64,000 nt of DNA from Trichodelitschia bisporula. Taxonomy: Eukaryota; Ascomycota; Dothideomycetes; Phaeotrichales; Phaeotrichaceae. The position numbers were made by a program, and so were the translations under genes. The stretch spans positions 124,001-188,000 of the forward strand of contig ML996700.1 of NCBI GenBank assembly GCA_010356995.1. The letters run 5' to 3'. Shown here piece by piece: positions 9,539 through 57,654 of this stretch. The notes under the pieces were generated by a model that worked only from the letters and a program-made list of their open reading frames with translations, did no database searches and was not told where the DNA came from. Position 1 is the first letter of the stretch; every line of letters begins with the position of its first letter.

Positions 9539-12076
9539 TCAATACACATCCCAAGTGCCAATTTGATTGGCAATCAGCCGACTCTTCGGCCAATCGTATC
9601 CGTGCTTGTAAGACGCCAAAAGAGGCTCCTCATCGATACCGCAATGGTCCTCACCATCGCGCCCGTTGAACCATCCAAGCCCATACGTTTTCTTCAGGCT
9701 CTCCAAATGCTTCGTCATCTGGCGGCCATCCATGCGATGTGTATTGACGAACGAACTTAACATGCGGCTCTGATGGATGTACGCCAAAATCCCGGCAATG
9801 GTACCCGGCTGACGTGGGAGGAACTTGTGCCGACGGTAAGCGTACACAAGCGACGCGACGGCACAAAGGTAGGCAATAATGATCATGACGAGCGCGAATG
9901 ACACCCAAAACGACTTGAACGTCTCGCTCGTGTTGTATCGGTCGTTGTTGTCGTGGTCGGTTGGATTTCCACCGTGGCCGCTGATGAACTTGCGCCCATC
10001 TACACTGAATGATGACACACATACGGTCAGCACTTCGGTGAGGATGGAGCCAAACCCCACCATGGCAATAAGCCAGTGCTTGTTCGTGAAGGCTTTGACC
10101 GTTAGCCAGCCGGGGACTGTGCCGGTGTAGTCGAGAGTGAGGGTCCGCGGAGCAGCGTGGCGCCGCGAGAGGACATAGTATGGTTCCACGACGCGCAGGT
10201 TCATATCCATGGAGCCCCAGAGGAGCTTGACAATGGTCGCCAAAGCAGTGAGGAGGAAGGAAACCTTCTCGGTGACCAGGTTCGCAGTGGGGACGAAGAC
10301 GAAGACGGGTACAACGCAAGCGAAAGCGACCATGTAGACGATGAATGGAACACCAAACAGGAGCCGAAGCATGGGAGGATGTGGATTCTCGACCTTGATG
10401 GCCTGGAGCTTCTCGTCGTGACGGATGTACTCACCCTGCCACAGCGAGGATTTGTGCAGATTGTAGCGGCGCTGGTTGAGTTGTTTGTCGATGTCGGCGT
10501 TGGAGGCTAAGTCAAGACCTTTCAGATCGTTCAGAATGTGGGATTTGGTGGCCATAGCTGCGATACCGGCGATTCCTTGAGGGTCACTGAGAAGTCCGCT
10601 CTTACGACGCAGCTGGATGAGCAAGAGAACGCCGTAGATGGCGATGCACAAGAGGGCCCCGCTCATCGCGCGAGACCAGATACCGTTGATCCGGACAAAC
10701 TTAGGCTCGTCATCCTGGCGCTTCTTTTTGTCCGGGAGCAGCACTACTGAACCGGATTGCAGGACCGGGACGATACCGCCGGCGAGGAGAGTCGCAACGG
10801 ATGAGAAGAACACGGCCCATTGCTTGCATCTTAGCGCTTTGAAGGGAATCAGATAGGTGATGGAGGTGAGGTAGTCCTGGTTCAAGGAATCCCGAGCCGT
10901 TGCACCGGATCGTTTCGATAACTGATAGAAGGGCTCAAGACGCTTTATTTCGAAGTCGGCCACCTGCCACATCACGCCGTATGTGACCAGGACGAGGGTC
11001 GGCAAGTACTTCCACACAAAATACTGCATGATGCTTAGTTCGTTCGGGTGCTTGAACTCTAGGAGACCGGTGTTTTTGCTGGCCCTCCTGATGGAGAGCT
11101 GACACAGGACTTCTTGTACAACAGCCAGCGCCGCAGCAATGACAATGAGCAAGGTGATATACGGCCATTTCATCGAGAAGGGTCGCCACGCCGGTTTTTC
11201 AGGATCCTCAGGGAAGAAGTAGCTTTTCTGTGTGTCGCTTCCATCTTGAGTTGGCACCGAGCCAGGCTTGGTGGATTGACTGTAGTCGGCGCCGCCAAAG
11301 TTGCTAATGTCGACCGTCGGCTCTTCGACTACGATGATTTCCCCCTTGGCTTCGGCTATCTTTTGTACAGCTGCGCGGGTCTCCTGATCCGTCGCCGATA
11401 AACCTCTTTTGTGTCTGCGTTGGCCAGGACTGGGATCGAAGGACCGCACATCGTTCATTCCCCCACCAAGAGCGCCATGTCCCGCAACCTCTTGCCCCAG
11501 ATGAGTGTAACCGTCCAGACCACTAATGTCATAGTCGATGCTTTCTGTCTCGGCAAAGGTCTGGAGCTCCTGATGTCCGTGCGCCTCGGCGTCATCGTGT
11601 AAGACGCCATATCGGTTTCGTTTCGACAGTCGATTCGTCCGTATGGACCCCAGTTTGCTTATCAGACTTTGTTTCTTAACGGGTTGGGATGCCGGCGTCG
11701 AGCCTTCCGACTCAAATGGGGAAATCGGTGAATAGCTCGTCTCCCTCGAGAACGAGGGCAAAGGCGGTGCCGACGGTAAGGTGAAGGGAGACGAGGAGGG
11801 AGCACTCTGCACAGGGCTTTCGCAGAGACTGTCGACCGTGGAGAAGCGCTTCGGAGGTCGTGCGTCGACGGACGTCCATTGCTCTGCCGCCGCCGATGCG
11901 CGACGCGACGACGAATAACTGGAGATGTTGGTGCCTCCACGCGAATAAGACTCGGGTATAGGGCTGACTGCGGACGATGGCCGCCGCGGACCGGACGATG
12001 TGCTTTCACGGCGGTTGTCGTCTCGTTCGTTGAGGGGACTGCCGACACGCAGCGCGGCAGGGAGCGCGTCATCCAT
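9539..12076 (-). CDS. DUF3433 multi-pass membrane protein
   Basis: A single-exon 845-residue protein. Residues 1-~290 are Ser/Pro-rich and disordered, probably cytosolic. From WRPFSMKWPYITLLIV onward there are about eight hydrophobic segments in two similar sets. Each set has a helix, a KRLEPFYQLSK or RVVEPYYVLSRR motif, a segment with LTSITYLIPFKAL or LDYTGTVPGW, and more helices. This duplicated layout with the (R)xxEPFYxL motif is that of Pfam DUF3433, a fungal membrane family of unknown function. The length is usual for the family. The C-terminal ~90 residues are cytosolic or lumenal, with short conserved motifs (QPGTIAGILAYIHQSRML). ATG 12076 begins the frame. No transport or enzymatic motif is visible, so no function is assigned. 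Confidence 0.85.
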   Translation of the reverse strand: MDDALPAALRVGSPLNERDDNRRESTSSGPRRPSSAVSPIPESYSRGGTNISSYSSSRRASAAAEQWTSVDARPPKRFSTVDSLCESPVQSAPSSSPFTLPSAPPLPSFSRETSYSPISPFESEGSTPASQPVKKQSLISKLGSIRTNRLSKRNRYGVLHDDAEAHGHQELQTFAETESIDYDISGLDGYTHLGQEVAGHGALGGGMNDVRSFDPSPGQRRHKRGLSATDQETRAAVQKIAEAKGEIIVVEEPTVDISNFGGADYSQSTKPGSVPTQDGSDTQKSYFFPEDPEKPAWRPFSMKWPYITLLIVIAAALAVVQEVLCQLSIRRASKNTGLLEFKHPNELSIMQYFVWKYLPTLVLVTYGVMWQVADFEIKRLEPFYQLSKRSGATARDSLNQDYLTSITYLIPFKALRCKQWAVFFSSVATLLAGGIVPVLQSGSVVLLPDKKKRQDDEPKFVRINGIWSRAMSGALLCIAIYGVLLLIQLRRKSGLLSDPQGIAGIAAMATKSHILNDLKGLDLASNADIDKQLNQRRYNLHKSSLWQGEYIRHDEKLQAIKVENPHPPMLRLLFGVPFIVYMVAFACVVPVFVFVPTANLVTEKVSFLLTALATIVKLLWGSMDMNLRVVEPYYVLSRRHAAPRTLTLDYTGTVPGWLTVKAFTNKHWLIAMVGFGSILTEVLTVCVSSFSVDGRKFISGHGGNPTDHDNNDRYNTSETFKSFWVSFALVMIIIAYLCAVASLVYAYRRHKFLPRQPGTIAGILAYIHQSRMLSSFVNTHRMDGRQMTKHLESLKKTYGLGWFNGRDGEDHCGIDEEPLLASYKHGYDWPKSRLIANQIGTWDVY

Positions 12077-40054: not shown

Positions 40055-41473
40055 GATTGAGGGATGTCGAAGAGCGGGCGTTTCTGGCGCGGGCTTGGCT
40101 AAGCCTGGGATGATTGCATTTCCAGCGGTCTTGGGCGCTAAATTCCCAAGAGGTGGTAGTGAGAGGGCCCGCTTGGGCGAAGGCTCAGGGCTGGGAGACG
40201 GCGCGACGCTGATGACTTGATCGGAAGTGAAGGCTCTGATGCGTCTAAGGGGGAAAGGGCGCTGGTCGCTTGGACGCTCCCCTGAGGGCTGTCCATAAAA
40301 GATCTATGATACCCATTATGAGATGGTGGTCCCTCTGGAACACGACAGATTCTCATCGAGGCCTGTATTGCTGGGGCGACGGTTAATAGTTAGCGCCTTG
40401 ACCAAATATGGGCATCACATCTTCAAGATTGGCGATATGCCAACTTATCAAACCAAGCAAGTTATAGAGTACGAGCTCTACTTTCAGCAGTAGATTTGTT
40501 GATGCCCCCAAACATCCGTTCGAGCACTTTGACGTGCATTTTTAGGGGAAGTGTGGAAGAGCCAGGTTGAAATGATCGTGTTCCTTGCTGTGAAGTCGCC
40601 TTAGCCAATTAGCAAGCAGCATCACGCCCGCCCTTGCGCGGCCGACGCGCCAAGGCTGACGCTTATCCAGACGACATACGACAAACCATCTCGCAGCGTT
40701 TGACAGATTCACCCTACGTTGTATAATGGAAGAGGACGCGTTAAAGTCCGCTTGTATGAGGAGATACTCGACTCAATGAGGGCTATGATGCCTTTTCAAA
40801 GTTGGCTCGTGAGCAACGACAGTCAGCGGAGATGTTGGGGCAATGATGCTTCATCCCATCATTGAACCGGTCGTGACGATGACGGTGTTTCCCTTTCCTT
40901 AAGTCAGCGCATAAGTCACTGCTAACTCTGCGATGATACTTTAGAGGAGGTTTTTTCTTTTAGCGATGCCTTTAAGCTTTTTGGAGCCATGGCACCGAAG
41001 CTAAGAAGAGTCGTGAGTTGCAAAGGATGTCGATCGTCGAACAAGCGGCCCGGGATATGATGGACACACGGAAGTGGACGGCATGAGACAGAAACAAAAT
41101 GCACGCAGTTGGTGAAGAAGTTGAGACGTGAGAAGCAAAAGAGAGGAGGAGGAGATGTGGGTAGAGAGGAAAAGAAGATGGCAGAAAAGGTTAGACGAGG
41201 TGAAGTGAAGTGAAGCATCAAACAATCGGCAGGACCCATCGCAACTTCCCCTTCAACCCCCCGTCACTGGCAGGCGCCTGGATCAACGCGACACCACAAC
41301 CATCCACCTTGGCACTTTGGTATAATCCTCTACTTGTTGACTACCCCGCTTTGCACCAACTCTTGACAATAGGAAGCTCTCCCCGCTCTCTGCTTCTCCC
41401 TCTCCGTTAACCACTCCTGCTCTCCCTTTTGTTCACCACCTCATTATTCCTTACTGCCCCTTACCTATTTACA
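40055..41473. other. Intergenic, no gene seen
   Basis: A 1.4-kb stretch. A 105-codon minus frame (40922-41239) lacks recognisable content. The final ~150 bases are C/T-rich as in promoters. Confidence 0.45.
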
Positions 41474-43812
41474 ATGACGAGGCCTCCAGAACAAACCAAG
41501 TTCAATGCCCTGCGTGCAAAATGGGATCACAATCAACGCCGAGACAGCAATGCTCCCCCGCTAGCTTCAATGCATGCATTAGGCGATACAAAAAGTGAAG
41601 GCCATGGCGACACCGAGAGACATTCACCCCACGACAACCGGAAGAGGACACCAAGTCGACTGCACCGCTTTGGCTCCTTCTCTCTGTTTAGCGGTGCTCT
41701 CAACTCCCTCAAACCGAAGCTCCTCAGCCGCAGCCACAAACCCGAGAGCAAGCCATCGTCGACCTCGGCGTCGACAACAGCACAGAGCGACTCGAGCAAG
41801 ACCACTACGGCGAGTCTCAGGTCTTCACCGCAGTCGACTCCTTTAACCATGCCGTCTGCGCCTGCGCCTGCGCCTGCGGCCGCCTCGATCACGGTCTACT
41901 CTGCGAGAACTCCTTACGAATCTATGGGCCCGCCGCCCCCAAAGCTGCCACGGAACAATTCAACCAGCTTTCTTCCCGTCCCTGTCAAATCGGCGAGTAC
42001 AACGTCTCTAATCCCCCCGCCGAGCGTGAGAACTTTCCCGCAGTCTAAATCCACGAATCTCTTGCCGCGTTTGAAATCGTCGACTATAGCGCCTCCACCG
42101 CCCCCGGAAGAAGCGCGCCTGGTGCGCCCTTTGAGGGTCTCGCTTCCGCCTCAGAGTGGCGCTTCCCTCCAAGCATCTTTGAACCAGGCGCCGCGGCAGT
42201 CTTCGCGGCATCCTTCTCGACAGCCGTCCCTGCAACCGCAGCAGACTCCCCGGAAGCCATCCCAACGGTCTTTGCAGCCGTCCTTCAGACAGTCTTCCCA
42301 GCGGTTTGGCCAGCAGACTCCAAGACATCACTCTCAGCGGTTGGCTCAGCAGCCTCCCCGTGAGCCATCTCAGGGAGTTGGACAACAGCTTCCGAGACAG
42401 TCATCGCAACAATTTCCGCAGCAGCCTTTAGAGCCGCCCTCCCAACAGTTTCCCAGACAGCTGCCCCTGCAGCAGTCTCAGCAGCAGTTCAAGAGGACGT
42501 CTAAACCGCTACCCCAACAGCGGGCTCCGAATAGAAGTCGGATACCGACACCTGTAGGCACCGCGCGGGCCTATGCTTCTGCGCTCAAACAGGATGATCC
42601 GAATGCTCCGCCAATGCCCCGTCCCCTCCCAACTATTCCCCGATCCAAGACGGAACCGAATCTCATTAGCGCCACCTCTCGTAAGCCCCCGGTCCCGAAC
42701 CGCTCACACATTCCACCGGCTCTCCACTCGGAAAGTTCCCTCTTGGGGACAAAGTTGGAGGACGATGATGGTAGCATCAGCCCTAAGACTCTTAGCAAGC
42801 GGCTATCCGACTACACCTGCGCCGATGTTGTACAGAATAAGCGCCAGGAGATGGACTCGAGCCCGACTATGAGTTTGTCGGGGAATCAAAAAGGTAAATA
42901 TTTCATTGGTCAAGAGCATTTCGTTACCAAGAGGAGCCAACCGCCAGGTCACGTCTCTCCCAGAGCAAAGGCGCTGGAGTCAAGGGTCAAGCAACCTCCT
43001 ATAGCCGCAAGGCCTTCGCGTGGAGAACCGAGCGCAAGACACCAGCGCTTTTCTTCTTCTCATGATATCACTCATCACAAACTCCTGGCGCCTATTCAGC
43101 CTACAAGCCCTCCAGCCTCTGACTTACGGACATATATAGCTCCCCAGGATTTCGTGCCCCCCCGCCGGCACGAGTCGCTCCCACACATTAGCAGCGCGCA
43201 TGCGACCGAGGAGGACGAGCTCCCTCCTTTCCTACACTTTCTCGATGCCGATAGCAGTCCGCCAACGCGCGCCACCGACATTGATCGCTCTCCAGCGCTG
43301 CATGACACCGAACCTGAACTTGAACTCCCGCCGCCACCCCCCGTAAGTTGTGGTACCTCCATCATTCAACTATACTGATATCACAGATCGAAACCGAGCA
43401 GCCCACGGCCTACTGGGCCGGCCGCTTCACGTCCATGCGCGACAATATGCTCAACAGCACCTTCGACATGGAAAATCGCCCGCGCGATATAGGAGACCTG
43501 AACCGGCGCATTCCGGGCTTGACCAACTACGAGCAGGGCATCAAGGACGTGTTTGACCGGCTGGAGGGCCTGTGCATTACACCGCCCGCACACCGCAGCC
43601 TGTGTATGTTCCGAAATTCCTACGCGCGGAAGAATGGGATGCGCTTCCTCGAGCGCCCGCTTCCGCCTCTGCCGCGCAGTCCGGGTGATCGGCCGAGTCA
43701 GTCGTCTGAGGAGCAGCCGGTGCAGCGGGAGCGGCGGTTCTCACTGCTTGGGCGTATGGCGAGGAAGGGGCGGAAGGTGAGTGGGGACGAGCAGCGAGAG
43801 ATGCAGGCTTAG
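41474..43812 (+). CDS. Gln/Pro/Ser-rich disordered protein with conserved C-terminus
   Basis: Two exons (41474-43342 and 43387-43812) give 764 residues. Most of the first exon product is Ser/Pro/Gln-rich and disordered. Around residues 235-355 it has many QQxPRxxSQ-like units (SQRFGQQTPRHHSQR, QQLPRQSSQQFP). Exon 2 begins IETEQPTAYWAGRFTSMRDN, a YWxGRFTxxxDx motif that I recall from uncharacterised Pezizomycotina proteins; it continues with helical sequence (DVFDRLEGLCITPPAHRS) and a basic tail. No signal peptide or membrane helix. Possibly a scaffold or signalling protein with phosphosites (inference). ATG 41474 is the first in frame; upstream codons to 41429 lack an ATG. Confidence 0.7.
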
Positions 43813-44000: not shown

Positions 44001-47000
44001 CTATTCCACTGCCACCCACTCCTCGTCCGAGTCGGCGAACATGTCTACAGCCCTCGGCCTCTGCCGTCTGCCTTCGCCGGGCTTGTTCATGAATGAGAAG
44101 CCACCTCCCATAGCTACCGGCCTAATATCTTTTGTTTCAACCGCTGGCGAGGCCCCTGTCGCAGGAGGAGCTTTCGTCTTATCGCCTGTAGGAACGCCTG
44201 CAGGAGTTCCAGCTTCCACGTCCATCGGTTCACCATCAACGTCGTCCAACGGCTCGCCGTCCACATCCTCGTTCATGGGCTCGCCATCGATGTCATCGGC
44301 AATCGGCTCGCCATCGACGTCTTCCCCAATCGGCACCCCGTCAACATCCTCAATTGCCTCGCCATCCACATCCTCCTCAACGGGAACCGTCTGCGCCTCC
44401 ACCGCCTTCCATTTACTCTTCGCCGCCCTGAGCGCCTCAAGCTCTTTTTCCTTGTGCTGTTGCCTAATCCTTTCCCGTAGCGTAGGCGGGGGATTGGTGA
44501 ACCCAGTGACAAACTGCTTGTGCACATCGCCGTCGAACACGCAAGACGTCTCCCAGAACTCGAGTAAGTTGAGCACTTGCGCCTTCCAGCGGTCGGCCTT
44601 CATCTTGCCCCACCCCATCTCCTTGGCTACTCGGCCGAGCCGCTCGAATACGCGGCGGGACTTGAGGCCCCTTTCGAAAAGCTGCCGGTAGCGCCAAGCG
44701 CGGGTTACGCCGGAGCTACTGCTTGCCGCGAGGAGGTCTGAGATGATGTACAGGCCTATGATTTTAGCGGCGACCATGTCTTCACGCTGCTTCTCCTCGA
44801 GGGTCTGCAGCGCCTTTCCCGAGCCGGCGTCCCACAGCCTGACCGTCCTGTCCCNNNNNNNNNNNNNNNNNNNNNNNNNNNNNNNNNNNNNNNNNNNNNN
44901 NNNNNNNNNNNNNNNNNNNNNNNNNNNNNNNNNNNNNNNNNNNNNNNNNNNNNNNNNNNNNNNNNNNNNNNNNNNNNNNNNNNNNNNNNNNNNNNNNNNN
45001 NNNNNNNNNNNNNNNNNNNNNNNNNNNNNNNNNNNNNNNNNNNNNNNNNNNNNNNNNNNNNNNNNNNNNNNNNNNNNNNNNNNNNNNNNNNNNNNNNNNN
45101 NNNNNNNNNNNNNNNNNNNNNNNNNNNNNNNNNNNNNNNNNNNNNNNNNNNNNNNNNNNNNNNNNNNNNNNNNNNNNNNNNNNNNNNNNNNNNNNNNNNN
45201 NNNNNNNNNNNNNNNNNNNNNNNNNNNNNNNNNNNNNNNNNNNNNNNNNNNNNNNNNNNNNNNNNNNNNNNNNNNNNNNNNNNNNNNNNNNNNNNNNNNN
45301 NNNNNNNNNNNNNNNNNNNNNNNNNNNNNNNNNNNNNNNNNNNNNNNNNNNNNNNNNNNNNNNNNNNNNNNNNNNNNNNNNNNNNNNNNNNNNNNNNNNN
45401 NNNNNNNNNNNNNNNNNNNNNNNNNNNNNNNNNNNNNNNNNNNNNNNNNNNNNNNNNNNNNNNNNNNNNNNNNNNNNNNNNNNNNNNNNNNNNNNNNNNN
45501 NNNNNNNNNNNNNNNNNNNNNNNNNNNNNNNNNNNNNNNNNNNNNNNNNNNNNNNNNNNNNNNNNNNNNNNNNNNNNNNNNNNNNNNNNNNNNNCGATGC
45601 CGACGCCAGCTGCTTGCCGTCCGGCGAGAAGGCCACGACCAAGACCGAGTGCGAATGGCCCTCGAGCGTATGCAGCAAGGCATCCCAGTTGCCCCTAACC
45701 TGCGGTAGTCCGGGCATCCACAAAGGCATCTGGCTTTGAAACCGCCTTTTTACAAGGCTTGCTGTCTGGTCATCTTCTTCCACTTGGTTGTCCTGATTTG
45801 AATCTGAGGCCCTCTTCCAGTATCTCTCTGGGTTCGCGCTGGTGAGACAAAATGGCTTCTCCAGGTTCGATATCAACATCTGGACAACCTCTTCTGCACC
45901 CCGTTCCGCATGTTCGATGGCAAAAACAGACACTCGCGCTACATCGCCTTTGCGCAATCGGCCTTTACTCTTTGGTAAGCGGCCAAGCAGAAACGTGAGC
46001 TCGGCCCGTTGCAACGGCGTCAGATACTGCGGCGCCTTCGAGTCTCTTTCAGTCCCTGGTCGCAGTTCATCATCCGAATCTTCATCCTCCGCTGAGTCAT
46101 AGTCTGTGTGGTCGATAATGTTTTCAAAGTCTGGTATGATCTCGAAAGTTAGCGGCTTTTCGGGTGTCTCCCAAAGCGTGGTATTTTCGAAAAGCTCCGT
46201 GATATTTTGGTTCGGTCTGGCTCGTCCAATGCTTGCAGCGCCCGTACGGATCTCCCACAAACGCCAGCGGTACCACACAGCTCCTGGACTGCGTGGGTTC
46301 CAAAACCACGCCCACTTTTCGTCAGTCTGAATATCCCGGCGCTTCTTAAGCAGACTTTCGAATTCGGGCCCGAATTTCAACACAGATTCCACGGTCTGAT
46401 TAATGAGTTTGAGTTGAGTGAGGTCCGCCGGGGGAGTGACCGCAACCCTTATAGTGCCACCTTGACGGTTGTACTGCCCACCACCGCTACCGTAGGAAGG
46501 AGGAGGGAAGCCACGTCCGTAGGGAGGCGGGGGCCGATTCAGAGGGCCACCTGGACCATTGTTTACCGTCCTTGCTCCAAATGGTAGTGACGACGAAGAG
46601 GACGAAAGAGCTGAAGCAGAAAGCCCTCCGAGTGCGGCTGACGAGAGATGTCGAGACAGTGAGAGGTAGTAGCCATAGCCTAGGTAGCGGTCTTGTAGTG
46701 CATTAACAGCAGCGTCAATCTCGCTTGCAGGGGTGTCTTTTGCTAGAGTCACGATGGCAGCGCTTGAGCGCCGCTCAGACGAACCCGGATTCGCAGGAGG
46801 CAGAAATCGTACTCCTTCAACAGTCAAGTTCGCTGGTATTAGGTTCCGGACAGTCGCCTGTGAAGTGCCCGGCGGTAACGATGTGAGATGCATTGTCGGC
46901 TTAGGTGCCGCGCGCTCGGCAGCATTATCCGATCCCATGTTTTCATCCTCGTCGTCCGAAACCTGAAAAACGGCCTTTGCGTCCAGAGGCGCAGCATCCT

Positions 47001-47400
47001 CGAATCCCAGGCCCGCACCCTTCTGGCTCCGAGGTGCGAACGACCCATCTATAGCCCTTTTTCTTGACAAAGAAGGCGGCGGTGGTTGCGCAGGCCCAGG
47101 GCCAGCGCGAGGACCGATGGGCGCAAATCCACGCTTCGGACCACCCGGCGGCGCAAAGTCCCCACCAGTCCTCATACCGGGCCTGTCAAATCCGCTGCCA
47201 TCTCCTCTACCGTCCGAGTATCCGCCCTCGCCTTCGAAGGACTTGACGAAGCTCTCGAGCGCGGCGGCGGTCTCGGCCTCTTCGCGCTGGCGTTTGGCTT
47301 CCGCCTCGGCTTTCTGTCGCTCGAAAAGGGATTTCTTCGTCGGTGCATTGAGTTTTGTCGAGATGTCCGGGAACTCCTTCACTTTGTGATCGTCCGGCAT
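44001..47400 (-). CDS. SR140-type U2 snRNP splicing factor with inserted WD40 array
   Basis: One frame covers both sides of a gap. From ATG 47400: a basic helix (SLFERQKAEAEAKRQREE), an RRM (~168-250), a SURP-like domain (~316-390, FGPEFESLLKKRRD, WFWNPRSPGAVWYRW) and the first CID helices (~459-520, YLTPLQRAELTFLLGRLP). After the gap come the remaining CID helices (KIIGLYIISDLLAASSSSGV, HAWRYRQ-like RAWRYRQLFERGL) and a tail of DVDGEPI repeats, all as in SR140/U2SURP. Between the CID halves lie about 55 residues (SLVKRRFQSQMPLWMPGLP, then NWDALLHTLEGHSHSV and FSPDGKQLASAS) and, after the gap, DRTVRLWDAGSGKALQTLE. These are the linker and WD40 repeats of fungal NACHT-WD40 proteins. Both junctions are in frame. 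SR140 acts in U2 recognition in the nucleus; what the inserted propeller does is unknown. Confidence 0.85.
44209..44388 (-). repeat. DVDGEPI-type coding repeat
   Basis: In the C-terminal tail of the SR140-type gene about seven units of eight to nine residues (EDVDGEPI, DDIDGEPM, EDVDGEPL and similar) stand in tandem. Such repeats are known in this family and support its identity. Confidence 0.8.
44855..45594. other. Assembly gap (740 N) inside the WD40 array
   Basis: The run begins and ends inside a WD40 unit: ...QLASAS on the N-terminal side and DRTVRLWD... on the other. Unresolved near-identical tandem repeats would explain the gap. Its nominal length does not keep frame (the flanks need a length of 1 modulo 3; 740 leaves 2), so 740 is presumably an estimate. 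Confidence 0.9.
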
Positions 47401-56364: not shown

Positions 56365-57654
56365 ATGCCCATGGAAGCCGCAGGCACCGCTAGCGTGCTC
56401 CTCCTTGATCTGTCCACTTCTGCACTTGGGGGGATAGATCTCCTGTCATTCACGACAACACCACGGTTCAAGGGCATCAGAAACGTACCACCGGGCTGGC
56501 ATTTTGTCTTCACAAGCACCACAAGCTCGGTTTCTGTACGTCACGGTGCATGGTTCTTCGTCAAAGAGAAATCTGGGCCGCCAGAGCTCTTCGTCAAAAG
56601 ATGGGATGCTTCCAAAGAAGAACTTGTTGCGGAAACGGACATCGGGGAGCAGCTTCGCTGGAGAAAAACCCTCGGTTCCATATGGAGAGAGAATCTGGCC
56701 CCTTATCGTCAGACTACTGGGAAAGATGCTTCAGAGGCAGAAGCCGAAACCCGTGACTGGCAACACCTAACCAACTGCATCAGCGAAAAGTTGTTATCAC
56801 GAATCACCGGCCCCTCAGACAACCATTGGAGTTTAACGTCCGCCAGCTCAGCTGCACGCGATATGGATGTTATCCCCGGACTCCCGCCAAACATCAGTGA
56901 GATTCAGCGCGAAAAGGAGCTGAATTTCCTGCCCATCGATCTGAAGCGCACTTGGAGACACGGAGCCATCGGTCGCGAGCGCACAGAAGCCGCTTTGGAC
57001 CATTCTTGGGCGCTAGACGATCTGGTCAAGCATCACAGCGACGGGGGTGGGGAGACTCATATTCTGGGCGAACTACAATTCTGCTTTCTTATGGTGCTGA
57101 CCCTCAGCAACTACTCCTGTTTGGAGCAATGGAAGCGGCTTCTCGAGCTCATCTTCACCAGCAAGGCAGCGGTTAAGGAACACGCAGACTTCTTTGTCCA
57201 GGCCGTTACGCTACTAAAGCTGCAGCTGCAACACAGCGGTGATGTGGACGGCGGGCTCTTCGACCTCAGCGATGAGGGAGCTTCGTTTCTCAAGTCATTA
57301 CTTCGGAAGTTCAAACAAAGCTTAAACGACATTTCTGGAAAAGGAAAGAGCGAAGTCATGGATGAATTGGAGGAGTTGGAGGGCTATCTGCGGTCTGAAT
57401 ACCGCTGGGAGCTGGACAACAGCTTCGTAAAACGAGGCCTGGTTGAACTTGAAGACGGAGAAAAGGTTGAGCTCGAGGTTGCAGGTTTTGACGAAGAAGA
57501 TGAAACTGGAGAATATGCTCCGACTGTTGTCAATCTGACACCAGAACAGCTTTCAGCCCTGTCGATGAGTGATTCCACTGGTCGCGGTGCCGCTGAGGTC
57601 GCTGCCGATTCGGAAGAAGATCAAGATCTGGATGACATGGATACTAGGTATTAG
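56365..57654 (+). CDS. AAR2: AAR2 family U5 snRNP assembly factor
   Basis: A single-exon 429-residue protein. The N-terminal part, GGIDLLSFTTTPRFKGIRNVP followed by PGWHFVFTST and RHGAWFFV, is the signature beta-sandwich of Aar2. The middle has LNFLPIDLKRTW, then HILGELQFCFLMVLTLSNYS and EQWKRLLELIF, the helical domain. The C-terminus is acidic (DSEEDQDLDDMD). Aar2 binds Prp8 and Snu114 in the cytosol, keeps Brr2 out during U5 snRNP maturation, and is released on phosphorylation. Length is close to homologues in filamentous fungi. Nothing unusual in the gene. Confidence 0.9.
   Translation: MPMEAAGTASVLLLDLSTSALGGIDLLSFTTTPRFKGIRNVPPGWHFVFTSTTSSVSVRHGAWFFVKEKSGPPELFVKRWDASKEELVAETDIGEQLRWRKTLGSIWRENLAPYRQTTGKDASEAEAETRDWQHLTNCISEKLLSRITGPSDNHWSLTSASSAARDMDVIPGLPPNISEIQREKELNFLPIDLKRTWRHGAIGRERTEAALDHSWALDDLVKHHSDGGGETHILGELQFCFLMVLTLSNYSCLEQWKRLLELIFTSKAAVKEHADFFVQAVTLLKLQLQHSGDVDGGLFDLSDEGASFLKSLLRKFKQSLNDISGKGKSEVMDELEELEGYLRSEYRWELDNSFVKRGLVELEDGEKVELEVAGFDEEDETGEYAPTVVNLTPEQLSALSMSDSTGRGAAEVAADSEEDQDLDDMDTRY

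Follow-up and report, generated by a model that had tools for sequence, protein, structure and literature searches.

The host gene and its surroundings

The analyzed window is a stretch of 64,000 nucleotides from Trichodelitschia bisporula (contig ML996700.1), and all positions given here are those of the window. Its minus strand carries an open reading frame (ORF) that is interrupted by an assembly gap (Table 1). The 5' part, from the ATG to the gap, has 602 open codons and contains SLVKRRFQSQMPLWMPGLP, NWDALLHTLEGHSHSV and FSPDGKQLASAS, and the 3' part, from the gap to the stop, has 283 open codons. Judged by its sequence, this gene is SR140/U2SURP-like, because it encodes a SURP module and DVDGxP repeats that match human U2SURP; these two matches uphold the first-pass annotation, which had called the gene an SR140 splicing factor. 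A related human U2SURP alignment of the DVDGxP region has composition bias. U2SURP was absent among the matches listed for the 5' piece (60 of 72 PDB matches), and no RRM was matched by Pfam in the readable ORF at E up to 1, an RRM-like stretch being recognizable by eye only.

To our knowledge, SR140 proteins consist of RRM, SURP and CID, with WD40 repeats absent, and a literature search, with subscription journals mostly outside its reach, found no SR140 with a WD40 insert. The gene described here resembles SR140/U2SURP in the SURP module, the CID-like helices, the DVDGxP repeats and the order of these parts, and it differs in that an apparent WD40 array splits the CID.

Table 1. Features of the SR140/U2SURP-like gene, in window coordinates
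Feature	Position	Strand	Evidence
SR140/U2SURP-like ORF	44001..47400	-	ATG at 47400, stop ending at 44001; interrupted by the 740-N gap
SURP module, residues 330-384	46249..46413	-	Pfam PF01805, E 1.5e-11
N-terminal CID part, assigned helices alpha1-alpha3	45865..46017	-	AF2 helices; raised CID score of the joined flanks
Acidic host loop preceding the insert	45757..45864	-	sequence; AF2 pLDDT
Linker LVKRRF..QVRG, 22 residues	45691..45756	-	sequence
WD40 array start: putative d strand and strands a, b of the first unit	45595..45690	-	Pfam WD40; PDB matches
740-N assembly gap	44855..45594	.	only N run in the window
WD40 array end: GG + DRTVRLWDAGSGKALQTLE	44796..44854	-	sequence; PDB matches to WD40 chains
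C-terminal CID part, assigned helices alpha4-alpha8	44496..44795	-	Pfam CID, 15.0 bits alone; human U2SURP alignment from residue 589; AF2 helices
DVDGxP repeats, as in human SR140	44217..44333	-	human U2SURP chain 9r8v_SR residues 680-718, E 0.00029

Three other genes of the window are recorded here. The AAR2 gene at 56365-57654 (plus strand), with both Pfam AAR2 domains, lies about 9 kb from SR140 and is a second splicing-related gene in the window; we take AAR2 to be a U5 snRNP assembly factor. The gene next to SR140 is a long P/S/Q-rich ORF at 41429-43812 (plus strand), which stays in frame across an apparent intron of 44 bases (43343-43386) with the form GTAAGT...CTGAT...CAG; neither of its pieces, 41429-43378 and 43348-43812, had a Pfam match. 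At 9539-12076 (minus strand) lies a DUF3433 protein (Pfam 175 bits), from a family of unknown function.

WD40 edges, gap and reading frame

Sequence of another kind borders the gap on both sides. The 5' edge of the insert is the linker followed by NWDALLHTLEGHSHSVLVVAFSPDGKQLASAS, and a 55-aa query made of the linker and the WD40 start matched Pfam PF00400 at 29.3 bits (cutoff 27), whereas the whole 601-aa 5' piece scored 22.2 bits, below this cutoff. On the 3' side, DRTVRLWDAGSGKALQTLE reads without a stop into KIIGLYIISDLLAASSSSGV and onward to the stop at 44001, and the host sequence picks up again at 44795. PDB WD40 chains were matched by both edges. Adding a single base between the two edges yields exactly one WD40 unit of 42 aa (126 bp), which is the single composite unit that can be measured. 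These results agree with the first-pass annotation in placing WD40 sequence at both edges of the insert; one unit's worth of repeat is readable, and that such units form an array is inferred.

We found no NACHT or NB-ARC domain in the two readable ORF parts (Pfam, E up to 1) or in ten other ORFs of the window (E up to 0.001), and the ORF is therefore no NLR in itself and can include no more than a fragment of one. No HET domain was found by Pfam in the readable ORF parts either. Within the 64-kb window there were no further copies of the insert above chance matches of 11-12 bases. A target-site duplication was also considered; direct repeats shared by the junction flanks reach 7 bases at most, and as both copies of the longest are inside the insert, it gives no evidence of one.

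The base composition of the two WD40 edges differs from that of the host gene: 46 of their 51 codons end in G or C (GC3), compared to 484 of 813 host codons (Fisher p 4e-6). Corrected for amino acids, the GC3 of the edges has a z of 3.7 against the 11 ORF pieces of the window, and an equal GC3 is reached in 42 of the 4931 overlapping 51-codon segments of these pieces. The linker is host-like (13/22). Because its GC3 is high compared to the rest of the gene, the WD40 part looks of different origin than the host gene.

The first-pass annotation had also stated that both junctions are in frame. Each is in frame within its own piece; read through the gap, one continuous frame needs a gap length of 1 mod 3, and the written 740 is 2 mod 3, so that as written the frame is broken. 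The written size of an assembly gap is normally an estimate. With units of 126 bp, the gap lengths that keep the frame are 1+126k bases (631, 757, 883...), and k=6 gives 757 bases and seven units, 17 bases off the written 740. Since about 28% of random gaps would fall within 17 bases of some 1+126k, this is a weak hint of seven blades. Given the strand, the host and WD40 frames would both be kept at both junctions by chance in one case in nine.

These observations bear on the possibility that the insertion is real and SR140 is damaged, either by a frame break or stop in the gap, so that the protein would end after the first half of its CID, or because the insert is present in one allele only. 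The broken frame of the written gap fits such damage, and a loss may be tolerated, as S. cerevisiae is viable without SR140. Against this, all readable codons upstream and downstream of the gap are open, the conserved parts are present, and both frames are kept at both junctions; a damaged copy appears unlikely to us, although a frame break in the gap is a real prospect.

The gap has a second possible meaning, namely an assembly artefact in which WD40 reads of another gene were misjoined on either side of a break in SR140. Illumina assemblies of HNWD-type arrays, whose repeats are 126 bp long, show breaks, Ns and chimeric repeats (PMC12222747, in part), and in candidate fungal NLRs, WD repeats of high conservation are 42-43 aa long (PMC4986451, in part). 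If the assembly used here is a short-read one, the 740-N gap fits this behaviour; the array itself is the gap, and the jump in GC3 is compatible with foreign sequence. An artefact would, however, need two chimeras within a single loop that agree in strand and both keep the frame, one bringing the start of an array to the 5' side and the other the end of one to the 3' side, and the assembler would have had no evident reason to break within a unique CID that would otherwise have been uninterrupted. In addition, the two sides jointly give an exact 42-aa unit. A double chimera in one host loop is improbable, and we give the artefact little credence, slightly less than the damaged copy.

Least likely of all is that the insert lies inside an intron and is spliced out to leave a normal SR140. 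GT words of unusual form (GTAAAA, GTTAGG) occur near the 5' junction, and much of the insert is unread, which would leave room for such an intron. The splice words themselves are absent: over the 300 nt upstream of the gap the donor GTRHG occurs 0 times against 2.2 expected (zero in 12% of base shuffles), and over the 255 nt downstream of it the branch word CTRAY occurs 0 times against 0.6 expected (zero in 56% of base shuffles), so that their absence weakly disfavours the intron. Moreover, both WD40 edges are in the host frame, which is not required of an intron. The apparent intron of the neighbouring P/S/Q-rich ORF, with its GTAAGT and CTGAT words, is set against this explanation as well. 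We consider this explanation very improbable.

Probable position of the insert in the CID

The first-pass annotation had placed the insert inside the CID. Taken separately, the N-terminal flank had no match to the Pfam CID profile, and the C-terminal flank scored 15.0 bits. When the flanks were joined without the insert, the match spanned positions 16-119 of the 120-position profile and scored 19.1 bits, compared to a cutoff of 23.9. As controls, shuffled N-terminal halves were joined to the real C-terminal flank, and the five controls run, of eight made, scored 13.7-15.7 bits; the joined real flanks outscored all five, and all of these scores are below the cutoff. In a PDB search with each CID half alone, no CID chain was matched. 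The alignment of human U2SURP to the flanks is collinear, with residues 552-581 at a negligible 0.3 bits and residues 589-745 at 21.3 bits with composition bias. Between these blocks there are 7 residues in the human protein versus 43 host residues here, the insert excluded and the first block being weak.

The structural part of the evidence comes from AF2 models built from single sequences, which are of low confidence (mean pLDDT 55 for the piece before the insert and 56 for the piece after it). The piece before the insert has helices at 10-21, 32-44 and 50-60. Stretches with a pLDDT below 50 cover 29 of the 36 residues of the acidic loop and include a short helix at 73-81. The piece after the insert has six helices. 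In our own assignment, the first three helices correspond to CID helices 1-3, and of the six downstream ones the first five correspond to CID helices 4-8; this leaves one additional helix on either side of the insert, the fourth upstream and the sixth downstream, as surplus to the CID pattern.

The CID label has modest support from sequence, at a score below the cutoff. The join-the-flanks result and the low-confidence AF2 helices together suggest that the insertion sits between CID helices 3 and 4, a position that is supported but not proven. The earlier placement in a CID loop is to this extent retained: the joined flanks exceed the shuffled controls and the helix pattern fits, whereas the domain itself does not reach the Pfam cutoff.

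Taking these lines of evidence together, we regard it as somewhat more probable than not that a linker and a WD40 array were inserted into the CID of SR140 in the genome itself, and that the gene is one open frame. The arrangement would then be real and unusual, and its best reading is an inserted propeller, probably from an NLR-type gene. The first-pass annotation is thereby partly supported; in describing the capture as expressed, fast-evolving and NLR-derived it claims more than the sequence can carry, although it may still be right.

Source of the WD40 sequence and possible consequences

The source of the propeller is a question separate from that of its insertion. A pattern scan of prokaryote genomes with the linker-WD40 query gave 537 candidate stretches, 335 of which encode relatives; the best 80 of the 335 (78 loci) have 40-84% identity over their best segments. 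Among viral contigs there was one relative in 18 stretches, which is weak and has no readable WD40, and the host C half had no relative among 13 viral stretches. Used alone against these 79 loci (78 prokaryote and one viral), the linker gave eight weak rows (E 0.006-0.55), none of them convincing; the best covers 20 residues at E 0.006, and several consist only of DALLHTLEG, the start of the repeat. Some gapped bacterial alignments extend across the linker (L054, query 2-55 at 47%; L024, query 1-55 at 38%).

Two details of these loci are reported as observations. The viral relative (L079:4001-4126, an IMG/VR contig) has PQVRGNWD in common with the linker, WD40 being absent there, and this is probably chance. 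Two bacterial MAG loci (L054:2785-2964 and L068:635-778) share P.LRNFEW.YLDRL just before their WD40 repeats, in gapped alignment to the linker; this stretch may be a separate, bacterial kind of joint preceding WD40 repeats.

We propose a WD40-type NLR gene as the likely donor; the arrays of such genes are known to recombine readily. The linker resembles what we take to be the NACHT-to-WD40 joint of fungal NLRs. The insert is like HET-E/HNWD of Podospora in its 42-aa (126-bp) unit, in having an assembly gap of the kind that published work describes where array repeats are near-identical, and possibly in a divergent d strand before the first unit. In HNWD/NWD-type NLRs the repeats are over 80-85% alike; those of the insert would lie in the gap. 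It differs in that no NACHT or HET was found, in that only 24 of 41 residues are equal to a published het-e repeat, and in that the host is a splicing factor.

The same comparisons leave room for a different source of a real propeller, an explanation that overlaps with the preferred one: another repetitive WD40 gene, bacteria, or an old feature of SR140 in this clade. The many prokaryote relatives, the gapped bacterial alignments that extend into the linker, and the limited identity to the het-e repeat all speak for it. NLR-like proteins hold 60-70% of the highly conserved dikarya repeats, which leaves 30-40% elsewhere (PMC4986451, in part). Against it, by the same numbers, most such repeats belong to NLR-like proteins, and the linker has no convincing match of its own in the 79 loci and looks like the NACHT-WD40 joint. 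We consider a source outside the NLRs somewhat unlikely, though less so than a damaged copy or an artefact. We know of no highly-repetitive WD40 protein that occurs as an insert in a spliceosomal CID. Proteins of this class in bacteria and fungi (PMC5587647, in part) share with the insert the FSPDGKxLASAS-type repeat, for which there are many bacterial matches here. Plant integrated-domain NLRs (compare PMC4759884) are similar in that parts are exchanged between immune receptors and ordinary proteins; here, in contrast, the direction would be reversed, with a receptor-type sensor in an ordinary protein.

Under the NLR-donor reading, the acidic loop of the SR140 CID, a long one between alpha3 and alpha4, would have received the linker and a tandem WD40 array in frame. 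The array may consist of seven 126-bp units that form one closed beta-propeller. HET-E has been modelled with two rings, the second of which is closed by a cryptic d strand from the N-terminal end of the WD40 domain (PMC12222747, in part); here, NWDALLHTLE may be the d strand that closes a single ring. Because the two ends of a closed propeller adjoin, the loop could carry it without pulling the CID apart, and judging from the fold, helices 1-3 and 4-8 may still pack as one CID.

Human SR140 is described as a scaffold: as modelled, its SURP binds CHERP and its CID binds residues 80-140 of SPF45, while the part that follows the CID extends along SKIP and CTNNBL1 (PMC13332222, in part). The protein described here is predicted to keep the SURP, CID and DVDGxP regions for binding to the U2 snRNP and to G-patch proteins, and it would have in addition a putative protein-binding ring beside the CID, near the place where human SR140 is modelled to hold SPF45. 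Expression of the fusion, a retained CID fold and a new binding partner are what we infer from this arrangement. It is doubtful, though conceivable, that an NLR-type propeller has been domesticated in SR140 and that repeats are still exchanged between it and the genome's NLR arrays, which would give the SR140/G-patch module of the spliceosome a fast-evolving and perhaps allele-specific binding surface.

Fungal NLR sensor arrays recombine with each other. If the preferred reading is true, an NLR array has moved into an unrelated housekeeping gene and has been tolerated there, and repeat propellers would be able to spread as ready-made modules. For SR140, the gene would further amount to a domain-insertion experiment done by nature, one that tests whether the spliceosome leaves the alpha3-alpha4 loop of the CID free. 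More generally, gaps at such arrays may conceal unusual proteins in fungal genomes.
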